From: Streptomyces niveus
Lineage (GTDB): Bacteria > Actinomycetota > Actinomycetes > Streptomycetales > Streptomycetaceae
Assembly: GCF_002009175.1 (NCBI RefSeq)
Contig: NZ_CP018047.1
Span: 5,580,001 to 5,644,000 of the forward strand
DNA length: 64,000 nucleotides
Direction: 5' to 3'
Shown here one piece after another: positions 50,543 through 64,000 of the stretch; the stretch's first letter is position 1; each line of letters opens with the position of its first letter. The position numbers and the translations under genes are program-made. Under the pieces are notes generated by a model. That model was not told the origin of the DNA, did no database searches, and worked only from the letters and a program-made list of their open reading frames with translations.

Positions 50543-51160
50543 TCACCGGACGCCGATGAGGTGCGCGTAGGTCACCACGTTGCCCTGGTAGCCGGTCTTC
50601 TCGGAGAATCCGCCGCCGCAGGTGATCACCCGCAGTTCGGCCCGGTCCTTCTTCCCGTAGACCTTCCGGTCGGGGAAGTCGTCGTTGTCGTAGACCTCGA
50701 CGGCGTCGACCGTGAACACGGCGGTCCGCCCGTCCCGGCGGGTGACCTCGATCCGCTGCCCCTTCTTCAGGGTGCCCAGGCTGTAGAAGACCGCCGGGCC
50801 GCGCGCGTTGTCCACATGGCCCGCGACGATCGACGTGCCCTTGGCGCCCGGGGTGGTGCCGTCCTTGTACCAGCCGGCGGCATCCCCGTTCTCGGCCGGC
50901 GGGACGTCGAGGCTGCCGTCCTTCGCCAGCCCCAGCCGGGTGACCGGCGCGTCGACCCCGATCTCGGGTATTCGCAACCGTACGGGCGGGGAGGCGGGCA
51001 TCGGGTCGGCGGCGGCGTCCGTGTGGAAGCCGGGCCCGGCGGCGAACGCCTGGGCGGCCGACGGGATCGGCGGGGTGACGGTCCGCGAGCCGTTCTGCAC
51101 GAGCCACACGCCGACGCACGCGGCTCCGGCCACCAGCCACGCCTTGCCCTTGACGGTCAT
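50543..51160 (-). CDS. Class F sortase
   Basis: A 205-residue membrane-anchored sortase. N-terminal helix GKAWLVAGAACVGVWLV, a linker, then the catalytic barrel: His in SIVAGHVDN, Cys in RVITCGGGFSE and the conserved Arg at the end (LIGVR). Class F sortases of actinobacteria attach or process surface proteins; substrates are poorly known. The neighbour (51303-51824) encodes an exported protein with a C-terminal membrane segment, a candidate partner in the same operon direction. Confidence 0.92.
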   Translation of the reverse strand: MTVKGKAWLVAGAACVGVWLVQNGSRTVTPPIPSAAQAFAAGPGFHTDAAADPMPASPPVRLRIPEIGVDAPVTRLGLAKDGSLDVPPAENGDAAGWYKDGTTPGAKGTSIVAGHVDNARGPAVFYSLGTLKKGQRIEVTRRDGRTAVFTVDAVEVYDNDDFPDRKVYGKKDRAELRVITCGGGFSEKTGYQGNVVTYAHLIGVR

Positions 51161-51302
51161 CGCTCGGCCTGCGAGGTCATGGGTCCTCCGGAAGTTGTTC
51201 CCCCGCCCCCGGCAGCGATGAGCGTGACGGGGGCGGGGGCCACGGCGGTACGGGGGCGGTGGAGGCCGCCAGGGCCTGGTCCGAAAGACAGGCCCCGCCC
51301 CG

Positions 51303-51824
51303 TCAGCTGCCCTGCGCGCCGCTCGCCCGACGGCGCAGGAGCCAGGTCCCGCCGACGGCGGCAGCGGTCAGAACGACCGCCCCCGCCGCGATCTGGGTGG
51401 TGTCGGGTCCGACGCTGCCGCCGACCCCCGTCCGTACATGGCCGGACGGCTGATGCTCGCGGTGGTGCTCGACCCTCAGGTCGCCGCGGGCCTCCCGGCC
51501 GTTCTCGCAGTGCACGAAGATGGCGTAGGTGCCCGCCCGGGTGTGCTCGGGCACCCGGAACCGGCCGACGACGGTGTCCTTGCGGTCGCCGGGGCGCAGA
51601 CGGAACTCACCCGCTCCCAGGGAACTGGCGTCGCCCCTGCCGTGCCCGTCCTTGCCGCAGGCGGTGGTGTTGACCGTGACGGTCTCGCCGGGTTCGGAGG
51701 TCGAGGGGAACAGCTCCAGCTCACCCCGGTCGCCGGCGAACGCGGCGGCGGGGGCCGCGAGGGACAGGCCGAGCGAGGCGGCCGCCAGCGCGGTACCGGT
51801 CAGCAGGCGGGCGGTGGTGCGCAT
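51303..51824 (-). CDS. Exported protein next to sortase F
   Basis: A 173-residue protein with a signal peptide (about 30 residues, ending AAAFAGD), a beta-rich domain LELFPSTSEPGETVTVNTTA to HTRAGTYAIFVHCENG, and a C-terminal TM helix TTQIAAGAVVLTAAAVGGTW followed by RRR. That tail has the sortase-substrate shape, but a clear LPxTG motif is missing. Function unknown; proximity makes it the likely partner of the class F sortase 142 nt downstream. Confidence 0.78.
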   Translation of the reverse strand: MRTTARLLTGTALAAASLGLSLAAPAAAFAGDRGELELFPSTSEPGETVTVNTTACGKDGHGRGDASSLGAGEFRLRPGDRKDTVVGRFRVPEHTRAGTYAIFVHCENGREARGDLRVEHHREHQPSGHVRTGVGGSVGPDTTQIAAGAVVLTAAAVGGTWLLRRRASGAQGS

Positions 51825-54139: not shown

Positions 54140-54478
54140 ATGACCGGTCCGGAGTTCCTGACCGTACTGACCACCACCGACAGCGCCGCGAAGGCGGAGG
54201 CCCTGGCACGGGGCGCGGTGGAGGCGCGGCTCGCCGCGTGCGCGCAGATCTCGGCGCCGGTCACCTCCGTCTACCGCTGGCAGGGCGCGATCGAGACGGC
54301 GGAGGAGTGGCAGGTGCTCCTCAAGACGACCGCCGCCCGCTACGGAGCCCTCGAGGCGCATCTGACGGCGGCGCACGACTACGACACGCCGGAGATCCTC
54401 GCGTTCCCGGTGGTACGGGGCAGCGCGCCGTACCTGGCCTGGCTGGCGGACGAGACCGCGCCCGGCGCTATTTCCTAA
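54140..54478 (+). CDS. cutA: Divalent-cation tolerance protein CutA
   Basis: A 112-residue CutA1: LTVLTTTDSAAKAEALARGA, LAACAQISAPVTSVYRWQG, EEWQVLLKTTAARY and DTPEILAFPV. These are the diagnostic segments of the trimeric family linked to copper and other divalent metals, whose function is still unclear. GAAGGAG lies 8 nt before the ATG. Its stop overlaps the 3' end of the convergent HpcH-like gene by 4 nt. Confidence 0.92.
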   Translation: MTGPEFLTVLTTTDSAAKAEALARGAVEARLAACAQISAPVTSVYRWQGAIETAEEWQVLLKTTAARYGALEAHLTAAHDYDTPEILAFPVVRGSAPYLAWLADETAPGAIS

Positions 54479-55341
54479 GCCGTCCGGTCCGCCCGGCCCG
54501 TGAGTTCGCGGGCGCGGCGGACCGTCGCCGCGTCGACCATCGCGCCCCCGCTGTCGCGGAACGCGCCGCTGCCCGCGTCCACCCGGTGCTCGAACAGGTC
54601 CAACAGGGCGTGCGCGTCCGCCAGTTCGCCGGGGTCGACGCCGAACACCTCGTTGGCGACGGCGACCTGGACCGGGTGGATGCAGGCGCGCCCCTGGAAG
54701 CCGAGCCCGCGCAGCCGCAGGCTCGACGTACGGAACGCCTCGGGGTCCGAGGCGTGCACCGACACGGGCGCCACGGCCGAGACGAGACCGTGCGCGGCCG
54801 TGTGCGCGACCGTCAGACCGCGAGCCCAGTCGAGCAACTGGTCGCCGGGGGCGGAGTCGGGAGCCATCCGCAGATCGGCCCGCAGATCGACCTCGCCGAG
54901 CTGGAGGTGGCGTACCCCGGCGCGGCCCGCGGTGTCGGCGAGCGAGAGCACCCCGGTGGCGCTCTCGATCAGCAGCCCCAGCGCGACCTCCGGTGCGGCG
55001 GCCACCAGCGCGATCAGCGCGTCCAGATCGGCCCCGGCCGTCGCCTTCGGCATCCACAGCCCGTCGACACGGCCCGTGGCCAGCAGCGCGCGGGCGTCGT
55101 CCCGGCCACGGGCGCCCTCGTTGATCCGTACCCACAGCTCGGGGCCCCCGGCGGCGCGCTCCTGGGCGAAGGCGACGGCGGCGGCGCGCGCCCCGTCCTT
55201 CCTCGACGGCGCGACGGCGTCCTCCAGATCGAGGATCAGCGCGTCCGCTCCCGAGCGCGGCGCGGCGCGCAGAAAGCGGGGCTGGTCGGCGGGTACGTAC
55301 AGATGGGAGCGGGGCGGCTGACCGGGCATGGGCGCTGGCAT
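54475..55341 (-). CDS. HpcH/HpaI-family CoA-ester lyase (CitE/Mcl-like)
   Basis: A 288-residue TIM-barrel lyase of the CitE/malyl-CoA lyase class: SHLYVPADQPRFLRAAPRSG, LILDLEDAVAPSRK (CoA/Mg region), the metal Glu in LGLLIESATG and the Asp in LGEVDLRADL. Such enzymes cleave or form beta-hydroxyacyl-CoA thioesters (citryl-, malyl-, citramalyl-CoA). Start ATG 55341 has AAGGAG upstream. It diverges from the MBL/CoA-transferase pair, and a shared 17-nt element lies in the gap. Substrate not identified. Confidence 0.88.
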   Translation of the reverse strand: MPAPMPGQPPRSHLYVPADQPRFLRAAPRSGADALILDLEDAVAPSRKDGARAAAVAFAQERAAGGPELWVRINEGARGRDDARALLATGRVDGLWMPKATAGADLDALIALVAAAPEVALGLLIESATGVLSLADTAGRAGVRHLQLGEVDLRADLRMAPDSAPGDQLLDWARGLTVAHTAAHGLVSAVAPVSVHASDPEAFRTSSLRLRGLGFQGRACIHPVQVAVANEVFGVDPGELADAHALLDLFEHRVDAGSGAFRDSGGAMVDAATVRRARELTGRADRTA

Positions 55342-55366
55342 GAACACTCCTTACACATCATGAATC

Positions 55367-55383
55367 AGATGATGCATTTTCCA
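55367..55383. promoter_or_regulatory. Candidate GntR operator, copy 1
   Basis: AGATGATGCATTTTCCA, identical to 59494-59510, in an AT-rich gap between divergent genes. A wider dyad (CATCAT...ATGATG, 55357-55373) surrounds it. Confidence 0.65.
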
Positions 55384-55495
55384 TGATGGTGATGTAGTTT
55401 GCGACTCACCATACTTCAAGACCGGGTGTCACATACGGAAGTGGGCGTGGCCCCGGACCCGTGACCCGGACTCGTAACTACGGGAGGACCGCGGC

Positions 55496-56506
55496 GTGTT
55501 CGAAGCCGACAGCGTGACGATTACCGTGCTGGTCGAGAACCAGGTGGACATGCTGCTGCCCGACCAGGCCAGCCCCACCGGCGGCCACGGCGGCGACGGT
55601 GTGGACGACCACTGCGTCTCCCGGTACGGACTGATCGAGCACTTCGATCCCAAGCGCGTGCCGCCCCAGGCCGAGAACGGCATCAGCTTCCTGGTCGAGG
55701 CGGTACGGGGCCGCCACAGCGTGCGCGTCCTGTTCGACGTCGGCCTCACCGGCACCGTCCTCGAACACAACATGCGGGTGCTCGGCGTCGACCCCGCCTC
55801 CATCGACCATGTCGTCATCAGCCATGGCCATCCGGACCATTTCGGTGGAATCCACCGCTTCCTCGACCTCGCCGGACGCCCGATCCCCGTCGCCACCCAC
55901 GCCGACGCGGAACTCCCGCGCTACGCCGTGATGGGCGACGGCCGCACCTCCTCCGTCTACAACGCGGCGTTCCGGTTCGGCGAGGTCGAGAGGTCCGGCG
56001 GCGTACCCGTACTGACCCAGGACTCCCTCGACCTCGGCTGCGGCGTGCACACCACCGGGGTGATCCCCAGGAAGGTCGCCTTCGAGGCGGGCGCCGCACC
56101 GGCGTTCAAGCCCGGCGACCCCGGCCTCTACCAGGTCTCACCGGAGGGAAAGCTCCGCCGCGACGAGGTCATGGACGAGATGGGGCTCGTGATCGACGTA
56201 CGCGGCCAGGGGCTCGTCGTCCTCACCGGCTGCGCGCACGCCGGAGTCGTCAACACGATCGAGCAGGCGCGCGCGGTGTGCGGACCCAAGCCCGTACGCG
56301 CCGTGATGGGCGGATTCCACCTCGGCTTCCCCACCACCCCGGCGGAGAACGTCGGGCTGACCGCCGCCGCGTTCGCCGAACTGGAGGTCGCGACCGTCAT
56401 GCCGATGCACTGCTCCGGACTGCGCACCCACACCCTGCTGTCCACCGACATGTCCGCCAACTACGTGCAGCCCGCGGTCGGCACCGTGCTGCGCTTCGGC
56501 CGCTGA
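55496..56506 (+). CDS. MBL-fold metallohydrolase (DHPS-like subgroup)
   Basis: A 336-residue metallohydrolase: VISHGHPDHFGGIHRFLD has the zinc HxHxDH; LTGCAHAGVVNTIEQA and FHLGF are those of the group annotated as dihydropterin aminobenzene-phosphate synthase-like. Whether it makes or hydrolyses a phosphate/thioester is not known. GTG 55496 with GGGAGGA upstream. It overlaps the CoA-transferase gene start by 1 nt (TGATG), so they form one operon, diverging from the lyase. Confidence 0.85.
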   Translation: MFEADSVTITVLVENQVDMLLPDQASPTGGHGGDGVDDHCVSRYGLIEHFDPKRVPPQAENGISFLVEAVRGRHSVRVLFDVGLTGTVLEHNMRVLGVDPASIDHVVISHGHPDHFGGIHRFLDLAGRPIPVATHADAELPRYAVMGDGRTSSVYNAAFRFGEVERSGGVPVLTQDSLDLGCGVHTTGVIPRKVAFEAGAAPAFKPGDPGLYQVSPEGKLRRDEVMDEMGLVIDVRGQGLVVLTGCAHAGVVNTIEQARAVCGPKPVRAVMGGFHLGFPTTPAENVGLTAAAFAELEVATVMPMHCSGLRTHTLLSTDMSANYVQPAVGTVLRFGR

Positions 56507-57681
56507 TGAGCGGCGACCTGCGGGGCATCCGGGTGATCGCGGTCGAACAGGCCGTCGCGGCGCCCCTGTGCACCCGCCATCTGGCCGACCTCGGAGCCGA
56601 GGTCGTCAAGATCGAGCGGCCCGGCGGCGGCGACTTCGCCCGCGGCTACGACGAGAGCGTGCACGGTCTGGCCAGCCACTTCGTCTGGCTCAACCGGGGC
56701 AAGCGCAGCGTCGTACTCGACCTGAAGACCGAGCCGGGGCGGCGGGCGCTGCGCCAACTGCTCGCCGGGGCCGACGTCCTGGTCTGCAATCTGGCGCCCG
56801 GCGCCCTGAACCGGATCATCACCGACGAGGCCCTGGCGGAACTCAACCCGCGCCTGGTGCGCTGCTATCTCTCCGGCTACGGCCCGTCCGGCCCCTACGC
56901 CGACCGCAAGGCGTACGACGCGCTGGTGCAGGGCGAGGCCGGCACGATCTCCGCCACGGGCACCCCCGAGAACCCGGCCAAACCCGGTGTCTCCCTCGCG
57001 GACCTGGCCGGCGGCTCGTACGCGCTCAGTGCCGTCACCTCCGCCCTGTACGCCCGGACACGGACCGGCCTCGGGCGGCGGATCGACATCGCGCTGTTCG
57101 ACGTGCTGCTGGAGTGGATGAGTCCGCTGCTGCTCGCCGAACTGCACTCCGGTTCCGCGCCCGCGCCGGCCGGACTGCGGCACGCCAGCATCGCCCCGTA
57201 CGGGCCGTACACGACGGCCGACGGGCAGGACGTGCTGATCGCCGTGCAGAACGAGGGGCAGTGGCAGCGGCTCTGCCGCACCGTGCTCGACGACGCGGCG
57301 CTGCTCGACGACCCGGACTTCAGCTCGAACACCGCGCGGGTACGGCACCGTGAACGCACCGAACGGGCGGTGCAGGCACGGCTCATCACCCTGTCCACCG
57401 CCGAGGTCACCGCCCGGCTCGAAGCGGCGGACGTGCCGCACGCGCGGCTGAACCAGATCGCCGACGTACTGGCCCATCCGCAGGCGCAGGCCACCGGGCG
57501 CTGGTCGGAGGCGACGCTGCCGGACGGACGGGCGGTCCGGGTGGTCACCTCGCCGCTGCACCGCGCACCCGAGCCGCCGGGCGGCCGGAGGGTGCCCGCG
57601 CTGGGGGAGCACACCGCCGAGGTACTGGCCGAACTCGGGCTGTCCGAGGCGGACATGGCCGAGCGGGAGCCGGCCGGGTAG
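56506..57681 (+). CDS. Class III CoA-transferase (CaiB/BaiF family)
   Basis: A 391-residue CoA-transferase: GIRVIAVEQAVAAPLCTRHL, LGAEVVKIERPGGGD, YGPSGPYADRKAYDALVQGE, whose Asp is the catalytic residue, and LADLAGGSYALSAVT. Class III enzymes move CoA from a donor acid to a substrate acid without hydrolysis. Together with the CitE-like lyase it suggests CoA activation of an acid followed by C-C cleavage; this is inferred. Complete length. Confidence 0.92.
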   Translation: MSGDLRGIRVIAVEQAVAAPLCTRHLADLGAEVVKIERPGGGDFARGYDESVHGLASHFVWLNRGKRSVVLDLKTEPGRRALRQLLAGADVLVCNLAPGALNRIITDEALAELNPRLVRCYLSGYGPSGPYADRKAYDALVQGEAGTISATGTPENPAKPGVSLADLAGGSYALSAVTSALYARTRTGLGRRIDIALFDVLLEWMSPLLLAELHSGSAPAPAGLRHASIAPYGPYTTADGQDVLIAVQNEGQWQRLCRTVLDDAALLDDPDFSSNTARVRHRERTERAVQARLITLSTAEVTARLEAADVPHARLNQIADVLAHPQAQATGRWSEATLPDGRAVRVVTSPLHRAPEPPGGRRVPALGEHTAEVLAELGLSEADMAEREPAG

Positions 57682-57701
57682 CACCTGCCAGGCCTTCGAA
57701 C

Positions 57702-57743
57702 GCTGCTTGAACTGTCCCGGCAGGCCCGGACGGTTCAAGCGGC
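57702..57743. terminator. Hairpin between CoA-transferase and GntR genes
   Basis: GCTGCTTGAACTGTCC pairs with GGACGGTTCAAGCGGC (14 of 16, rest G-T) between convergent stops. Confidence 0.7.
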
Positions 57744-57752
57744 GCGCCGGTC

Positions 57753-58532
57753 TCAGTCGTTGTCGACGTCGAACGGGTCGGCGACCGCCCGGCCCGTCAA
57801 GTGCTTGCCCAGCGCCAGGAAGCTGCGCGAGAGGTGCCACTCCGTGGCCTTCGCCAGCGCGTCGCCGTCGCCGAGGCGGGCGGCGGCCAGCATGGAACGG
57901 TGTTCGTTGGAGGTCTCGTCGGCGCGGTCGTGGAGTACCTGGAGCACGTCCCACGGGAACTTCTGCCAGAGCTGCTCGATCTCCGCCGCCAGCCCCTCGT
58001 TGCCGCACTTGGCGTAGAAGAGGAAGTGGAACTGGTAGTTGGCCGCGTTCAGCCGCGCCCTGTCCCCTTCCTCGGCCGCCTGCTCCATGTCGGTCACCAG
58101 CCGCTCGGCCAGGTCGATGTCCAGCGGCGAGAGTCGCCGGGCGGCGCGCTGCATGGCGTACGGCTCCACGAGGCGCCGCAGCAGGTAGACGGTCTTGACC
58201 TGCTCGTAGTCGGCGTCCGCGACCCTGACGCCCTTGTGCGGCTCCCCGACCAGCACACCCTCGGCCTCCAGCAGGCGCAGCGCCTCGCGGACCGGGGTGA
58301 TGCTGGTGTCGAACATCGCGGCGAGCACGTCCTGCTGGATACGGCTGCCGCGGGGCAGCTCGCCCTCGCTGATCATCCGCCGCAGCTCGGTCGCGATGCG
58401 GTCCCGCTTGGTCGGCGCCTTGGCCGACGACTTGGCGGCCGACTTGGCCGGTTTCGGCACGGTTCTGGCGACGCCCTTGGGTACGACGCCGTCAGTCGTG
58501 CTGGTCTTGGTTCGTCGGGACTGCGGCGGCAT
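57753..58532 (-). CDS. GntR/FadR-family regulator
   Basis: A 259-residue regulator. A basic Ala/Lys-rich N-terminal extension (about 45 residues, KPAKSAAKSSAKAPTKRD) precedes the GntR HTH RIQQDVLAAMFDTSITPVRE, and then an FCD effector domain with metal-type His residues in NYQFHFLFY, NEHRSML and EWHLSRSF. Its likely ligand is a small organic acid or CoA-linked catabolite. It sits inside the module whose promoters share the 17-nt element. ATG 58532 with AAGGA upstream. Confidence 0.9.
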   Translation of the reverse strand: MPPQSRRTKTSTTDGVVPKGVARTVPKPAKSAAKSSAKAPTKRDRIATELRRMISEGELPRGSRIQQDVLAAMFDTSITPVREALRLLEAEGVLVGEPHKGVRVADADYEQVKTVYLLRRLVEPYAMQRAARRLSPLDIDLAERLVTDMEQAAEEGDRARLNAANYQFHFLFYAKCGNEGLAAEIEQLWQKFPWDVLQVLHDRADETSNEHRSMLAAARLGDGDALAKATEWHLSRSFLALGKHLTGRAVADPFDVDND

Positions 58533-58671
58533 GTCGTGGTCCTTCTGTCGTGGGCGCTCGGTGAGCGGTGGGGGAGCGGGCGGCGGGCCCGACGAGTGTC
58601 GCATCGAACGGAACGAACGGTGTGGCGTGGGCGATTGAGGACGGACCGGCGGGCCGGCGGGCGGGCGGACA

Positions 58672-59478
58672 TCAGTCGGCGGGCGCGGTGCGCAGCCCGT
58701 CGTGGAAGGCGGCGAGCGCGGCGGCGAAGGCCTCGGGCTCGTCCAGATAGGCGACATGGCCCGCGCCCGGCACGACGGCGCTGCCGCCGCCGAGCCGTTC
58801 GGCCAGCGCGTCGGCCGCCGCGGCGGGGACCCGGTGGTCCCGCGCGCCGCGCAGCACCTGACAGGGCAGGCCGACCGGACCCGGCCGCGCGTGCGCGGTC
58901 CAGCCGAGCGTGGCGCGCAGCGAGTCGATCAGGACCTCGGGCCGGGTGCCGGCCATCGAGCGGCGCAGCAGGTCACGGTGGGCGGGATCGGCGGACAGGA
59001 GCGTGCTGTCGACGTAGTTCCGGGCGAAGAGGGCCGCGCCGTCGCGGTTGAGCGCGGCGCGGGTGTCGGCGGGGCGGCGGGCCGCCTCGGCGCCACCGGC
59101 CGGGGGGAATCCGACCAGCGTCAGCGAACGCACCCGGTCCGGGTGCCGCTGCGCCAGGGCGAGCGCGACGAGCGCGCCGAGCCCGGACCCGACCACATCC
59201 ACGGGCCGGAGCGCATCCTCGGGCCCGCCGACGTCCTGGGACCCGACCACATCCTCGTACCCGACCGCGTCTTCGGACCCGCCCGCGGACGCGGACAAAG
59301 CCGTGCCCACCGCCCCGTCCACGGTGAACGGTTCGGCGGCGCGGGCCCCGTGGCCCGGCAGGTCGAGCGCCTTCAAGTGCCGTCCGCCCGCGCCGAGATG
59401 GCGCAGCGCGGGCTCCCAGGTCGCGGCGTCGCCGCCCCAGGTGTGCAGCAGGAGAAGAGGGTTCGCCCTCGTGGTCAT
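58672..59478 (-). CDS. Alpha/beta-hydrolase-fold protein with altered nucleophile elbow
   Basis: A 268-residue alpha/beta-hydrolase-fold protein: LLLLHTWGGDAATWEPALRH, then LDLPGHGARAAEP, and acid/base residues in GARDHRVPAAAADAL and GAGHVAYLDEPEAF. The nucleophile motif aligning with GxSxG reads VVGSGLGALVALALAQRHPD, so Gly stands where Ser is expected. A hexapeptide tract (GSEDAV, GYEDVV, GSQDVG, GPEDAL, RPVDVV) directly precedes it. Catalysis may be lost or use another residue. It diverges from the ABC transporter. Confidence 0.82.
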   Translation of the reverse strand: MTTRANPLLLLHTWGGDAATWEPALRHLGAGGRHLKALDLPGHGARAAEPFTVDGAVGTALSASAGGSEDAVGYEDVVGSQDVGGPEDALRPVDVVGSGLGALVALALAQRHPDRVRSLTLVGFPPAGGAEAARRPADTRAALNRDGAALFARNYVDSTLLSADPAHRDLLRRSMAGTRPEVLIDSLRATLGWTAHARPGPVGLPCQVLRGARDHRVPAAAADALAERLGGGSAVVPGAGHVAYLDEPEAFAAALAAFHDGLRTAPAD

Positions 59479-59493
59479 AGGCACCTCATACCA

Positions 59494-59510
59494 AGATGAT
59501 GCATTTTCCA
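59494..59510. promoter_or_regulatory. Candidate GntR operator, copy 2
   Basis: AGATGATGCATTTTCCA, identical to 55367-55383, in the gap between the hydrolase-fold gene and the ABC ATPase gene. Confidence 0.65.
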
Positions 59511-59564
59511 GATTCTGAAGTATAGCTATTGCATGTCAGGCATCCTAGTCCCAGAATCCCCGGT

Positions 59565-60374
59565 ATGACCACGATCAAAGCGGTGCGCCAAGCCGCACCG
59601 GCCGACGGCGACGAAGCCGGTGCCACGGTCAGGCTGGACGGCCTGACCATGCGATTCGGCGAGCGCACGGTTTCCAAGGACATCAACCTGACCATCGGCG
59701 CCGGCGAGGTGCTCTCCATCGTCGGACCGTCCGGCTGCGGCAAGACCACCCTGCTGAGGGCGGTCGCCGGTCTCATCCCGCCGGCCGAGGGCGCCGTCCG
59801 TATCGACGGCCACGTGGTGGACGGCACCCCGGACGGCGTGGCCATGGTCTTCCAGCACTTCGGCCTCTTCCCCTGGAAGACGGTCGAGTCGAACGTCGCC
59901 TACGCGCTGCGCGTGCGGGGGACGGGAAAGAAGGAAGCGCTCGACCGGGCACGGGAGTTGATCACCCTCGTCGGCCTCACCGGCTTCGAGAAGTCGTACC
60001 CCCATCAGCTGTCCGGCGGCATGCAGCAGCGCACCGGTCTCGCCAGGGCCCTGGCGGTGCGCCCCCGGCTGCTCCTCATGGACGAGCCCTTCGGCGCGCT
60101 GGACGCCCAGACGCGCGAAGTGCTCCAGTTCGAACTGCTGCGCATCTGGCAGGACCACCCCGTGACGATGCTGTTCGTCACCCACTCGATAGACGAGGCC
60201 GTCCTCTTCGGGAACCGGATCGCCGTACTCAACGGCCGCCCCAGCGGCGTGGCCGAGCTGATCGACGTAACGCTTCCGCGGCACCGGGACCGTTCCGTGA
60301 CGGCGATGCCGGAGTTCCTGGCGATCCGTGAGCGCGTCTGGTCCCTGATCATGAACGCCGAATCCGGCCGCTGA
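59565..60374 (+). CDS. ABC transporter ATP-binding protein (NitT/TauT type)
   Basis: A 269-residue ABC ATPase of the nitrate/sulfonate/bicarbonate type. Walker A IVGPSGCGKTTLLRAVAG, Q-loop with VFQHFGLFPWKTVESNV (a family-typical FPWKTV), signature LSGGMQQRTGLARALAV, Walker B LLMDEPFGALD and a switch His in VTHSIDEAV. With the downstream binding protein and two permeases it makes a complete importer. A possible leaderless or weak-site start at ATG 59565; the preceding 12 codons upstream are less typical. Confidence 0.92.
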   Translation: MTTIKAVRQAAPADGDEAGATVRLDGLTMRFGERTVSKDINLTIGAGEVLSIVGPSGCGKTTLLRAVAGLIPPAEGAVRIDGHVVDGTPDGVAMVFQHFGLFPWKTVESNVAYALRVRGTGKKEALDRARELITLVGLTGFEKSYPHQLSGGMQQRTGLARALAVRPRLLLMDEPFGALDAQTREVLQFELLRIWQDHPVTMLFVTHSIDEAVLFGNRIAVLNGRPSGVAELIDVTLPRHRDRSVTAMPEFLAIRERVWSLIMNAESGR

Positions 60375-60523
60375 CCGGCGCTGCCGGGCCGAGTCCGGCC
60401 CTGCCAGGCCCTGTCCGCCCCGTCCGGCCCTGACATACCCGGCGTGTCCCGCACGTCCGCCACGCCACACCCACCCTCAGCCCTGCCGTGCACCCTGGCG
60501 CGGAAGAAGAAGGAGCAGTTGCC

Positions 60524-61570
60524 ATGAAGTTTCCGCGACGCAGGTCCGCCCTGGTCGGTGCGGCCACCGTCCTCGCCCTCGTAGGCGCACTCGCCGGCTG
60601 TGGCGAAGGCGGCTCCGACACCGCCGCGGGTTCCGCCCCGGGCGGCGCCAAGATGACCATCGGCGTGCCGGGCATCCCGCCCATCTTCCTCAACACCGTC
60701 ATGTACGTGGGCGAGAAGCAGGGCTTCTTCAAGGACCGCGGCCTCGACGTCACCCTGCGCCCCCTGACGACCGGCGCCGACGTCGGCCGCGCGGTGCAGA
60801 GCGGCGAGATCCAGGGCGGCATCATCGGCACCCCGGGCGCCGTCGCCCTGCGGGCCACCGGCGGCTCGGTCGTCTCCGTGATGGGCTTCCCCAAGCCCAC
60901 CTACCTGCTGGCCAGCACCGACCCCGGCATCACGGACTGCGAGGCGGTCAAGGGCAAGACGGTGGCGGTGGACGCCGTGGGCGCGCCCAAGGCGCTCGCC
61001 CTGGCGGGCATGCTCAAGAGCTGCGGACTCGGCAAGAACGACGTCAGCACGATCAACGTCGGCGGTCCGCCCACGGTCGACGCGCTGGTGGCCGGACAGG
61101 TCAAGGTCGCCGTACTGCACCCGGACGAACTCGCCACCGTGCGGCAGAAGATCAAGTCCGGCACCGAGGCCCACGAGATCATGACGCTGGCCGGCGTCGA
61201 CCCGCTGGAGCACTACACGGTGCTCGTCGCACCCAAGAGCGCGCTGACCGGCGCGTCCCGCGAGCAGTGGGTCGACGTGGTCGCCGCCGTACGCGAGTCC
61301 ATCGCGTACATGAACGACCCGGCCAACCTCAAGGAGGTCGCGGCCATCGCATCCGGGGTCACGAAGGCGCCGGACAGTGTCACCGAGGCCGCGATGCCGA
61401 AGTTCCTCTCCCTCGGCGTCTGGCCGAAGTCGGGCGACGGCCTTGACCGCGCCGCCATCGAGCACACCATCGAGGGCGCCGTCGCGGCGGGCAACGTGCC
61501 CAAGCAGAAGGCGCCGACGTACGACGACATGGTCGACCCGTCCGTGTTCGCCGACGCGACGGGCAAGTGA
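60524..61570 (+). CDS. ABC transporter substrate-binding lipoprotein
   Basis: A 348-residue lipoprotein with lipobox LAGC near residue 28, then the NMT1/TauA/ThiY-like binding fold: IGVPGIPPIFLNTVMYVGEK, GFFKDRGLDVTLRPL, GEIQGGIIGTPGAVALRATG, and VKGKTVAVDAVGAPKALA. The family binds sulfonates, nitrate, pyrimidines, aromatic acids and similar small molecules, so the ligand cannot be read off. GAAGGAG lies 8 nt upstream. It overlaps the first permease start. Confidence 0.9.
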   Translation: MKFPRRRSALVGAATVLALVGALAGCGEGGSDTAAGSAPGGAKMTIGVPGIPPIFLNTVMYVGEKQGFFKDRGLDVTLRPLTTGADVGRAVQSGEIQGGIIGTPGAVALRATGGSVVSVMGFPKPTYLLASTDPGITDCEAVKGKTVAVDAVGAPKALALAGMLKSCGLGKNDVSTINVGGPPTVDALVAGQVKVAVLHPDELATVRQKIKSGTEAHEIMTLAGVDPLEHYTVLVAPKSALTGASREQWVDVVAAVRESIAYMNDPANLKEVAAIASGVTKAPDSVTEAAMPKFLSLGVWPKSGDGLDRAAIEHTIEGAVAAGNVPKQKAPTYDDMVDPSVFADATGK

Positions 61571-62439
61571 TGGGTACGCCCCCGGCCACCTCCCCGCACC
61601 CCGTGGCGCCACCCGACACACCCGGCACATCCGCGCTCCCGGCCGATGCGGTGCCGGCCGCGGGCCCGCCACGCGGCCGGCGCGTCGTCCGCCGGCTGAC
61701 ACCGCTCGCCATCTCGGCCGCCGGACTGCTCGTCGGACTCGGGCTCTGGCAGTGGGCGGGCCAACGCGACCCGGTCCTCTTCGCCACACCCGGCCGCTCG
61801 CTCTCGGCCCTGGCCACCATCACCGAGGACGGCACACTGCCGAGCGCGCTGCTCTCGTCGGGCCGCCTGCTCGTCGTCGGACTCGCCCTCGCGATCGTCG
61901 CCGGGGTCGGATTCGGCCTGCTGCTCTCCCGCGCCCGGCTGCTGCGCAGCAGCACCGACTGGCTGCTGTTCGCCCTCCAGTCCGTTCCGATCGTCGCCCT
62001 GGCCCCGCTGATCCTGTCGGCGTTCGGCTTCGGGCTGCCGGCCAAGACGCTGGTGGTCTTCCTGACCGCGGTGTTCCCCATCACCGTCAACACCGCGGAA
62101 GGAGCACACCGGGTGCCGACCACCCTGCTCGAAGTCGCCCGCACGTTCCGCAGCAGCGAGTGGCGGATCTGGAAGGACGTCCTGCTGCCGCACACCGTGC
62201 CGTACGCCATGACCGGCGTACGGCAGGGCATCGCGATGGCCTTCGTCGGCACCCTCGCCGCCGAGTTCTTCCTCAACGCCAGCGGCGTGGGCGGGCTGTT
62301 GCTCGCCGCGAGCACCCAGTTCGACTCGGCCACCGTGCTCGGGCTGACCCTGCTGGTGTCCGTACTGGCCGTCGCCCTGATGGGCTGCGGCCGGGCCGTC
62401 GAGGGCTACTTCGCACGGTGGCGGGAGGTGCGGCCATGA
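61570..62439 (+). CDS. ABC transporter permease 1
   Basis: A 289-residue inner membrane permease of the NitT/TauT type. After a disordered N-terminus, helices start at LAISAAGLLVGLGLWQWAG. The family core is LLLVVGLALAIVAGVGFGLL-like (LLVVGLALAIVAGVG), and the EAA-loop EVARTFRSSEWRIWKDVLLP. Start ATG 61570 overlaps the binding-protein stop (TGATG); GTG 61567 is an alternative. Next permease begins in a 4-nt overlap. Confidence 0.9.
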   Translation: MGTPPATSPHPVAPPDTPGTSALPADAVPAAGPPRGRRVVRRLTPLAISAAGLLVGLGLWQWAGQRDPVLFATPGRSLSALATITEDGTLPSALLSSGRLLVVGLALAIVAGVGFGLLLSRARLLRSSTDWLLFALQSVPIVALAPLILSAFGFGLPAKTLVVFLTAVFPITVNTAEGAHRVPTTLLEVARTFRSSEWRIWKDVLLPHTVPYAMTGVRQGIAMAFVGTLAAEFFLNASGVGGLLLAASTQFDSATVLGLTLLVSVLAVALMGCGRAVEGYFARWREVRP

Positions 62440-63287
62440 CACCGCGGACCATGACACCGAAGGCGCCCGCCGCGCCCCCGCCCGCCGCGAAGCGGCCCCG
62501 CCGCCGGGGTCAGGGCACCGACCCGGCCGTCGGCCGACGCGCCGACGTCATCGGGAAACTGACCGTCGCCGCCCTCGTCCTGGCCGTCTGGGAACTCTCC
62601 GTACGGCTCTGGCTGCCCGACTATCTGCCCACCCCCTCCGGCGTCGCCGGGGCCGCCCGGCCGACCCTGACCTCCCCGGAGTTCTCCACGGCGCTCGGCG
62701 AGACCCTGGGCGGAGTGGTGCTCGGCCTGCTCATCGGCTGCGTCGCGGGCACCGGACTCGGTCTCGCCGTCGGACGGGTGGCGTGGCTGCGCCATCTGAC
62801 CTCGCCGTACGTCAGCGGCCTGTACGCCATGCCGATGCTCGCGATCGTCCCCATGGCCACGATCTGGCTCGGCTACTCCGGCGAGACCCGGCTGGCCGTC
62901 ATCGCGCTCTCGGCGTTCCTGCCGTGCGTGGTCAGCACCGGCGACGGCGCCCGGAACGTACCGCTCCAGCTCTCCGAACTCGCGCAGATGCTGCGGCTGT
63001 CCCGCCCCCGGGTGGTGGTCGACGTACTGCTGCCGGCCACCCTCCCGTTCGTCGTCGCCGGCGTTCAGGTCGCCGTCGGCCGGGCGCTGGTCGGCGCGGT
63101 GGCCGTCGAATTCCTCGCCAGCCTGCCGGGACTCGGCACGTTCATCCTCACCAACGCCCGCTCGTTCGACCAGGACGCCGCGTTCGTCGCCGTCCTCGTG
63201 CTGGCCGTGCTCGGCATCGCCGCACGCACCGGGACCGAGGCGGCGCTGCGCCGGCTCGCGCCCTGGCACCTTCACGTCAACCGCTGA
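62436..63287 (+). CDS. ABC transporter permease 2
   Basis: A 283-residue second permease with about six helices; the N-terminal 40 residues are Pro/Ala/Arg-rich and disordered. VLGLLIGCVAGTGLGLAVGR and the EAA loop QMLRLSRPRVVVDVLLPATL identify the type. Two different permease genes imply a heterodimeric channel for the importer. Start overlaps the first permease (ATGA), with GGGAGG upstream. Confidence 0.9.
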   Translation: MTPRTMTPKAPAAPPPAAKRPRRRGQGTDPAVGRRADVIGKLTVAALVLAVWELSVRLWLPDYLPTPSGVAGAARPTLTSPEFSTALGETLGGVVLGLLIGCVAGTGLGLAVGRVAWLRHLTSPYVSGLYAMPMLAIVPMATIWLGYSGETRLAVIALSAFLPCVVSTGDGARNVPLQLSELAQMLRLSRPRVVVDVLLPATLPFVVAGVQVAVGRALVGAVAVEFLASLPGLGTFILTNARSFDQDAAFVAVLVLAVLGIAARTGTEAALRRLAPWHLHVNR

Positions 63288-63330
63288 CCACACCAAGAGC
63301 CGCCACAGAGCAGCCAGCAAGGAGCGAGAA

Positions 63331-64000
63331 ATGCCCGACGCCGGTGACGTACGGCCGTTCCGGACCGAGACCGTCCGCGGCATGCGGATCGAGTGGGACG
63401 TGCCCGTCGAGATGGACGACGGAGTCGTCCTGCGCGCGGACGTGTTCCGCCCGGTGACCGACGGACCGGTACCGGTGATCATGACGTACGGCCCGTACGC
63501 GAAGGGCCTGCCCTTCGAGCGCGGCTACCCCAGCGCGTGGAAGGCCATGGCGCGGGACCACCCCGACACCGTGGCCGGCACCTCGAACACCTACCAGAAC
63601 TGGGAAGTCGTCGACCCGGAGAAGTGGGTGCCGGACGGCTACGCGTGCGTGCGCGTCGACTCGCGCGGGACCGGCCGTTCACCGGGCCGCGTCGACCCGT
63701 TCTCGCCGCGCGAGACCCGCGACTTCCACGACTGCGTCGAATGGGCGGGCACCCGCGACTGGAGCAACGGCCGTGTCGGCCTCAACGGCATCTCCTACTA
63801 CGCGATGAACCAGTGGCAGGTCGCGTCGCTGCGGCCCCCGCACCTCGCCGCTATCTGCCCGTGGGAGGGCGCGTCGGACTTCTACCGCGACGGCTCCTAC
63901 CAAGGAGGCATCCGCTCCACGTTCTGGGACAACTGGTACGACATGCAGGTCAAGACCGTGCAGTACGGCGTCGGTGAGACCGGTGGCCGTGACCCGAACA
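63331..64000 (+). CDS. CocE/NonD-family hydrolase, N-terminal part (3' end outside window)
   Basis: At least 223 residues are in the window with no stop. The CocE-type alpha/beta hydrolase is recognised by DGVVLRADVFRP, VIMTYGPYAKGLPFERGYP, ACVRVDSRGTGRSPGRVDPF and the nucleophile region NGRVGLNGISYYAMNQWQVA, with Ser in GISYY. Relatives are esterases, amidases and X-Pro peptidases. GGAGCGAG precedes the ATG. It follows the importer within 44 nt, so it probably processes the imported substrate inside the cell. Confidence 0.9.
   Translation, partial: MPDAGDVRPFRTETVRGMRIEWDVPVEMDDGVVLRADVFRPVTDGPVPVIMTYGPYAKGLPFERGYPSAWKAMARDHPDTVAGTSNTYQNWEVVDPEKWVPDGYACVRVDSRGTGRSPGRVDPFSPRETRDFHDCVEWAGTRDWSNGRVGLNGISYYAMNQWQVASLRPPHLAAICPWEGASDFYRDGSYQGGIRSTFWDNWYDMQVKTVQYGVGETGGRDPN

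Follow-up and report, generated by a model that had tools for sequence, protein, structure and literature searches.

An apparently undescribed gene cluster in Streptomyces niveus and other actinobacteria for the predicted import, hydrolysis, CoA transfer and C–C cleavage of a carboxylic acid ester or lactone

The itaconate degradation set (Ict/Ich/Ccl, RipABC) combines a class III coenzyme A (CoA)-transferase with a CitE-type lyase, and the lower beta-ketoadipate pathway (PcaD, PcaIJ, PcaF) follows a logic of lactone hydrolysis, CoA transfer and C–C cleavage. In Rhodococcus jostii RHA1, PatDABC imports an acid ester, and a monoalkyl phthalate ester hydrolase belongs to the same catabolism (PMC10973024). 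Here, we describe a ten-gene cluster in Streptomyces niveus that shares parts with each of these systems. It lies in a 64,000-nucleotide stretch (the window, G000:C1:5580001-5644000) of an 8.0-Mb single-contig genome, spans window positions 54475 to 65094, and encodes a CitE-type lyase, a metallo-beta-lactamase (MBL)-fold protein, a class III CoA-transferase, a GntR regulator, an alpha/beta-hydrolase-fold protein without a nucleophile serine, a four-gene ATP-binding cassette (ABC) importer and a CocE/NonD hydrolase. We think that the cluster is probably an accessory regulon that serves the catabolism of a (di)carboxylic acid ester or lactone, which would be imported, hydrolysed, charged with CoA and cleaved at a C–C bond. 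This sequence of steps had been put forward in a sequence-only reading of the window and is still the best reading of the encoded families.

The differences from the described systems are as clear as the likenesses. Compared with the itaconate set, the cluster has no hydratase among its ten genes, adds the ABC importer, CocE, the MBL-fold protein and the serine-less protein, and misses the equivalog scores. Compared with the lower beta-ketoadipate pathway, a class III transferase and a lyase replace the class I transferase and thiolase. PatDABC resembles the cluster in joining ABC import of an acid ester to an ester hydrolase; the likeness is drawn from its description, and the part of the report drawn on here mentions no CoA-transferase or lyase step (PMC10973024). 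Plasmid pUSP2 of Aminobacter sp. MSH1 (L060:8930-17958) carries in one run a tripartite ATP-independent periplasmic (TRAP) importer, CocE, a UroD-like protein, a citryl-CoA lyase, a CaiB protein and an extradiol dioxygenase, possibly another undescribed acid pathway. It likewise brings together importer, CocE, CoA-transferase and CoA-ester lyase, but its importer is of the TRAP type, its lyase belongs to the citrate synthase family, no MBL match was found in it, and its CaiB protein is just 33% identical. The cluster itself is apparently undescribed: as the sequence-only reading had supposed, it corresponds to no named pathway, in that no curated pathway model was reached and no description of this gene set was found in the open-access literature searched. 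Substrate-specific cut-offs were missed for transferase, lyase and importer, and we therefore name no substrate.

Conserved co-occurrence, which the sequence-only reading had named as a check on its proposal, was found in 13 loci. A profile of 31 binding-protein sequences (the window's own and 30 of 98 found), searched against a species-genome collection, returned 31 loci, 11 of which hold the cluster enzymes in near-identical arrangement as far as their contigs reach: four from Streptomyces (L006, L007, L009, L018), four from Herbidospora (L010, L012, L013, L014) and one each from Phytohabitans (L008), Glaciibacter (L011) and a Pseudonocardiales metagenome-assembled genome (MAG; L015). Identities of the cluster genes in these loci range from 31 to 97%, most exceeding 50%. 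Another complete cluster in genome G044 (L114) and the window itself bring the total to 13 loci in five orders, three of which were looked up and two, those of the Streptomyces and Pseudonocardiales loci, presumed. Ten of the 13 loci show the complete set of genes; contig ends cut off L006 and L007, and L015 has just a piece of the lyase. Two of the complete loci are flawed. In Phytohabitans flavus (L008:6292-7400) the match to the CoA-transferase is split between two reading frames, which looks like a frameshift of the gene or of the assembly. In L011 the alpha/beta protein was not found by tblastn, and an alpha/beta-hydrolase-fold gene between CocE and CitE is taken as its counterpart by position and fold only. 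The arrangement is more than chance. The other 20 loci hold importer genes with distant binding proteins (26–38% identical), some on short contigs. Five of the loci (L017, L021, L022, L028, L033) form a distant binding-protein clade with M24-peptidase-like, 3-hydroxyisobutyrate-dehydrogenase-like or xanthine-dehydrogenase-like genes nearby (by eye), a separate importer context.

The cluster is rare and was found in few soil actinobacteria. Of 150 relatives, two, counting the window's own genome, have a match to the binding protein at E ≤ 1e-30. A class sample of 394 genomes gave 18 with the MBL-fold protein at E ≤ 1e-20 (best match besides its own, 43% identical), and a phylum sample of 396 genomes gave three at E ≤ 1e-60, its own included; at the latter threshold, the orders of genomes G829 (1/36) and G719 (1/30) yielded just those two again. 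Among plasmids, a single record matched at E ≤ 1e-30, with 34% identity.

Both halves of the cluster share a candidate operator. The regulator gene (57753..58532, minus strand) encodes FCD (79.4 bits against a cut-off of 24.3) and GntR (52.9 against 27) domains, which places its product in the FCD/FadR subfamily. A palindrome noticed by eye, GATNATGCATNATC, lies in both divergent promoter regions: as operator A (GATGATGCATTTTC, 55368..55381) between the lyase and MBL genes, and as operator B (GATGATGCATTTTC, 59495..59508) between the alpha/beta-hydrolase and ATPase genes. Both are exact matches to the Streptomyces form GATNATGCATTNTC. With up to two mismatches to GATNATGCATTNTC, the window yields the same two places only (four matches on both strands), compared to a mean of 0.74 matches in shuffled sequence, where 1 of 100 shuffles reached at least four. 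In the whole genome the two cluster sites are the only perfect GATNATGCATTNTC matches, and up to two mismatches give 61 matches versus 30 for a reversed control pattern. The 13 loci together offer 25 promoter positions for examination, and GATNATGCATNATC with up to two mismatches is present at 24 of them; the 279,729 bases contain a single further, stray match. These locus counts are not independent of the discovery, because the palindrome was first spotted in the same loci, including L065 of G719; the whole-genome rarity is independent. At a tolerance of one mismatch, G044 has no sites but the two of the cluster (control pattern, 1), and G719, where the GntR is 50% identical, has a single one, upstream of the MBL gene (control, 0). 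Further regulon members were sought through the operator, and none was adopted: of three one-mismatch GATNATGCATTNTC sites elsewhere in the genome, the one examined, L075, falls within open reading frames, one of which looks like a regulator by eye. FadR-subfamily sites are described as TKGT/ACMA boxes, and regulators of this subfamily as binding ligands such as carboxylic acids (PMC4494728). GATNATGCATNATC differs from these boxes. Predicted control of both operons by one GntR through the operator-like sites is well supported. The single regulator named by the sequence-only reading thus gains shared operator-like sites in both promoters, its binding to them being a prediction from the genomes.

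The CitE/HpcH-type CoA-ester C–C lyase (290 amino acids; 54475..55347, minus strand; Pfam HpcH_HpaI, 97.5 bits against 25) varies in a way that informs the scheme. In L006, L008, L009, L018 and L114 (Streptomyces, Phytohabitans) a full lyase, 68–92% identical to that of the window, is divergent from the MBL gene. In Herbidospora (L010, L012, L013, L014) and Glaciibacter (L011), a lyase of 31–36% identity follows CocE on the opposite strand. In these same five loci the MBL-fold protein, CoA-transferase, CocE and GntR are 59–74% identical, and the cluster genes other than the lyase 51–74% taken together, except for the alpha/beta protein at 33–40% where tblastn found it. Judged by these identities and positions, the lyase is exchanged between lineages. 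Because it is swapped while the rest stays, a C–C lyase step seems to be required, which would be the simplest reading of the exchange. The CitE-family Asp, Glu and Arg positions, which we take to have their family roles, are kept in all 11 aligned lyases of both types (by eye; the L015 chimera apart). The best NCBIfam model for the window's lyase is RipC_Ccl (NF038242), at 112.9 bits against a cut-off of 375, and it is also the best for all six CitE-type lyases scored (112.9–161.9 bits, all below the cut-off).

The MBL-fold metallo-hydrolase (336 amino acids; 55496..56506, plus strand; Lactamase_B, 39.5 bits against 22.7) and the class III (CaiB/BaiF) CoA-transferase (56506..57681, plus strand; CoA_transf_3, PF02515, 356.8 against 23.3) are tightly joined, the start codon of the latter overlapping the stop of the former by one base. 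The metal motif HGHPDH is present in nine of nine aligned MBL-fold proteins, which are 59–97% identical across the linked loci. The Asp of KAYD, presumably catalytic, is kept in 11 of 11 aligned transferases. The scores do not reach any substrate: succinate-glutarate CoA-transferase is the best model (NF052585, 276.9 bits against 750), ahead of oxalate (NF008511, 223.3 against 522) and mesaconate CoA-transferase (NF041294, 186.9 against 700). A GNxH active-site loop is reported for the ACOCT-type class III CoA-transferases YfdE/Mct (PMC5592240). The window reads GLRH at this loop, and its His is found in 11 and its Asn in none of 11 aligned sequences.

Two distant actinobacteria (G829 and G719) keep the MBL-fold protein and CoA-transferase with an FCD-GntR beside other importers. 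In G829 (L066) the pair adjoins a TRAP importer, and an FCD-GntR and a CitE-type lyase follow at some distance. This locus is like the cluster in its MBL-fold protein (59–61% identical), CoA-transferase (56%), FCD-GntR (33%, the best match) and CitE family member (30%); it differs in the TRAP importer, in genes resembling those for 3-hydroxyisobutyrate dehydrogenase and HbpS, and in having neither CocE on the contig nor a GATNATGCATNATC operator. In G719 (L065) the MBL, CoA-transferase (43%) and GntR (50%) genes flank sugar-type ABC-like genes (by eye).

The alpha/beta-hydrolase-fold protein (58672..59484, minus strand; Abhydrolase_6, 61.2 bits against 26.3) reads GSGLGA at its nucleophile elbow. 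Among its 41 orthologues (P0219-P0259, separated from the next hits by an E-value step between 2.5e-29 and 1.2e-11), the elbow GxGLGA has Gly in place of the catalytic Ser in every case, while the Asp is kept in 40 and the His in 39; all 13 aligned cluster members, the L011 counterpart included, share this elbow. An AlphaFold2 model (pLDDT 90.7) places residue 101 between strand 95-100 and helix 102-113, and the fold is that of an alpha/beta-hydrolase, with rice DWARF14 as best Foldseek match (6.2e-15, TM 0.70). The GxSxG nucleophile serine of serine hydrolases is absent. Since Gly replaces Ser in all 41 orthologues, this is not an ordinary serine hydrolase, contrary to what its listing as a hydrolase-fold protein in the sequence-only reading might suggest, and the conserved Gly, Asp and His argue for a function other than classical serine hydrolysis. 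The nearest relatives of the window's protein are from Streptomyces, and five protein clusters are named S. niveus. Seventy-nine more distant relatives (among 120 listed of 280 hits) have Ser (48) or Ala (31) at the nucleophile position. Among these relatives (P0260-P0338), PcaD-PcaC fusions, many of them from Streptomyces, frequently have Ala (30 of 55 by motif); serine-less PcaD domains may thus be common.

The importer consists of an ATPase (59529..60374; ABC_tran, 120.4 bits against 25; the start may be the ATG at 59565), a lipoprotein-like substrate-binding protein (60488..61570; Pfam NMT1 above cut-off, lipobox by eye) and permeases A (61567..62439; BPD_transp_1, 86.5 against 26.4) and B (62436..63287; 78.7 against 26.4), all on the plus strand, with four-base overlaps by the listed starts between the binding protein and permease A and between the two permeases. 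The NMT1-type binding protein, two BPD permeases and ATPase identify it as a NitT/TauT-type importer. Scores for taurine, sulfonate or nitrate systems fell below their cut-offs (SsuA_fam, 60.2/163.5; taurine-binding protein, 35.3/304; taurine ATPase, 232.5/357; ntrCD, 215.8/291.8). In the binding protein, Cys 151, Cys 179, His 211 and Tyr 243 are invariant in the 31 sequences, which could reflect a disulfide and ligand residues.

The CocE/NonD (S15) hydrolase (587 amino acids, plus strand) runs from 63331 to the window end at 64000 and on to L002:13095, equivalent to window position 65094 and 1,094 bases beyond the window. Its first 223 residues exceed the cut-offs of Peptidase_S15 (140.3 against 23) and TIGR00976 (160.3 against 66.3), the latter assigning it to the CocE/NonD subfamily, and GxSY, which we take to be the nucleophile motif, is present in 11 of 11 aligned sequences. 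By eye, CocE shows no signal peptide and the binding protein carries a lipobox, which would place hydrolysis after import. CocE homologues at E ≤ 1e-60 were found in 24 plasmid records, with 35–57% identity among the 20 listed. Eight of these regions, hand-picked and one of them without annotation, were read: the six annotated regions besides pUSP2 hold a BKACE-type or fumarylacetoacetate-hydrolase-family gene within 12 kb, and CocE of this kind may often sit with enzymes cleaving 3-oxo or 3-hydroxy acids. On Shinella plasmid PF (OZ000536; NZ_OZ000536.1, L056:11971-15567) the CocE homologue is 56% identical and near a BKACE-type gene; its identification with SHIWSC3_PF0195 of PMC11500405 rests on the plasmid and the single CocE place. 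Acesulfame, brought to mind by an MBL-type acesulfame sulfatase and by the Shinella CocE, was considered as a substrate and rejected, as the portion of that report used here ties its hydrolysis to another enzyme (PMC11500405).

All genes named by the sequence-only reading are thus present with open frames and domains above Pfam cut-offs. The adjacent downstream gene, a molybdopterin oxidoreductase on the opposite strand, was rejected as a member because it adjoins the cluster in just one other locus (L018). CutA and FMN reductase were excluded because they were not found beside the cluster in L008-L015 or L114, although CutA does adjoin it in S. niveus L006. Upstream, at 50543-51824, a sortase-like protein gene adjoins a small surface-protein-like gene (by eye).

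In the pathway that we propose, the substrate would be a carboxylic acid in ester, lactone or amide form, the acid itself probably being a dicarboxylic or hydroxy acid. The binding protein and ABC importer would carry it into the cytoplasm, and CocE would hydrolyse it there. The MBL-fold protein and the serine-less alpha/beta-hydrolase might contribute further ring-opening, hydrolytic or isomerising steps somewhere along the route. The class III CoA-transferase would transfer CoA from a donor to the acid thus released, and the CitE-type lyase, which is metal-dependent, would cleave the resulting 3-hydroxyacyl-CoA, giving a 2-oxo or 3-oxo acid together with acetyl-CoA or a different acyl-CoA. 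The FCD-GntR would bind GATNATGCATNATC in both divergent promoters and be released by the substrate or an intermediate. We favour this regulon because the same gene set occurs in 13 loci of five orders, because the operator is found in both halves and the lyase is exchanged, and because the MBL-fold protein and CoA-transferase recur with an FCD-GntR in L066 (TRAP, CitE) and L065 (sugar-type ABC). The same logic with an unrelated lyase on pUSP2, and the carboxylic acid-type ligands described for FadR-subfamily regulators (PMC4494728), point the same way.

A lactone or enol-lactone route akin to the lower beta-ketoadipate pathway, with ring opening, CoA transfer and C–C cleavage, has some points in its favour. 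The MBL fold includes lactonases, PcaDC is the best NCBIfam model for the serine-less protein, and the Ala of 31 of the 79 listed relatives provides a precedent for a serine-less lactonase fold. However, PcaDC scores only 78.9 of 390 bits, the Protein Data Bank (PDB) fold neighbours of the serine-less protein include many esterases, and a Pfam scan found neither a thiolase nor a class I CoA-transferase among the ten genes, so that we regard such a route as unlikely. The sequence-only reading had guessed at acids of the itaconate or malyl type, and catabolism of itaconate, mesaconate, citramalate or malate esters by a known route (CoA-transferase, a hydratase where needed, citramalyl- or malyl-CoA lyase) would agree with RipC_Ccl as best model of all six scored lyases and with class III transferases named for mesaconate, (S)-malate/citramalate and itaconate in the part of PMC5592240 consulted. 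Against it stand the RipC_Ccl and mesaconate transferase scores, itaconate, citrate and malyl lyase cut-offs all being far off, the missing GNxH Asn in spite of the kept His, and the lack of an enoyl-CoA hydratase among the ten genes in the Pfam scan, in which unlinked hydratases were not searched. The guess therefore fared poorly, and we consider a known route of this kind quite improbable.

Catabolism of 3-hydroxy-3-methylglutarate (HMG) conjugates by a hydrolase, a SUGCT-like transferase and a CitE-type lyase, yielding acetyl-CoA and acetoacetate, is very unlikely. The best transferase model and solved homologues named succinate-hydroxymethylglutarate CoA-transferase would suit it, as would the CitE-type Rv2498c, reported to be an (R)-HMG-CoA lyase (PMC6689899); yet the 750-bit cut-off is far off, the PDB search gives higher scores to three other chains, and the Rv2498c chain 6aq4 matches the window's lyase weakly (45 bits). 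Least probable of all is that an importer operon and a CoA-transferase/lyase operon are merely neighbours. In L065 and L066 the MBL-fold protein and CoA-transferase do occur apart from this importer, the stretches fetched contain no CocE, and the 20 distant binding-protein loci lack the cluster enzymes, but the same gene set recurs in five orders with the same operator in both halves.

Several points weigh against the regulon that we favour. Beyond the observed gene set, conservation, catalytic-residue states and operator-like sites, each reaction, the GntR binding, the step order and the substrate are inferred; neither the CoA-transferase nor the lyase reaches any equivalog cut-off, and the MBL-fold and serine-less proteins have no assigned step. 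CocE and the alpha/beta protein were not found in the 14.3 kb of L066, so the hydrolytic steps may not be universal. A Shinella CocE homologue is strongly expressed on acesulfame, whose hydrolysis is not associated with CocE in the part of that report used here (PMC11500405). The L015 lyase matches over 79 residues only, after which its frame passes into unrelated sequence. Operator A is missing from Glaciibacter L011. In genomes other than those of Streptomyces and G719, several one-mismatch sites are found apart from the cluster: Herbidospora G881 has four, one of them in the cluster (control, 1); Pseudonocardiales G883 has eight, of which two belong to the cluster (control, 1); Glaciibacter G882 has one, outside it (control, 2); and Phytohabitans G880 one exact and three one-mismatch GATNATGCATNATC sites, of which the exact and one other are in the cluster. 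As a side observation, the L015 frame after the CitE piece (L015:2113-5024) appears AMP-ligase-like by eye and adjoins transposase-like genes.

It is tempting, if still rather doubtful, to go further and propose an undescribed actinobacterial pathway for a hydroxy-dicarboxylic ester or lactone, with a new class of serine-less alpha/beta-hydrolase that would act on a lactone or enol ester by a general-base or non-hydrolytic mechanism, an exchangeable lyase, and a GntR with a GATNATGCATNATC operator other than TKGT/ACMA. Compact and equipped with its own regulator and operator, the cluster makes its substrate directly testable, and one inducer reporter screen could identify it. A conserved serine-less alpha/beta-hydrolase in a defined gene set also offers a handle on the role of such proteins.

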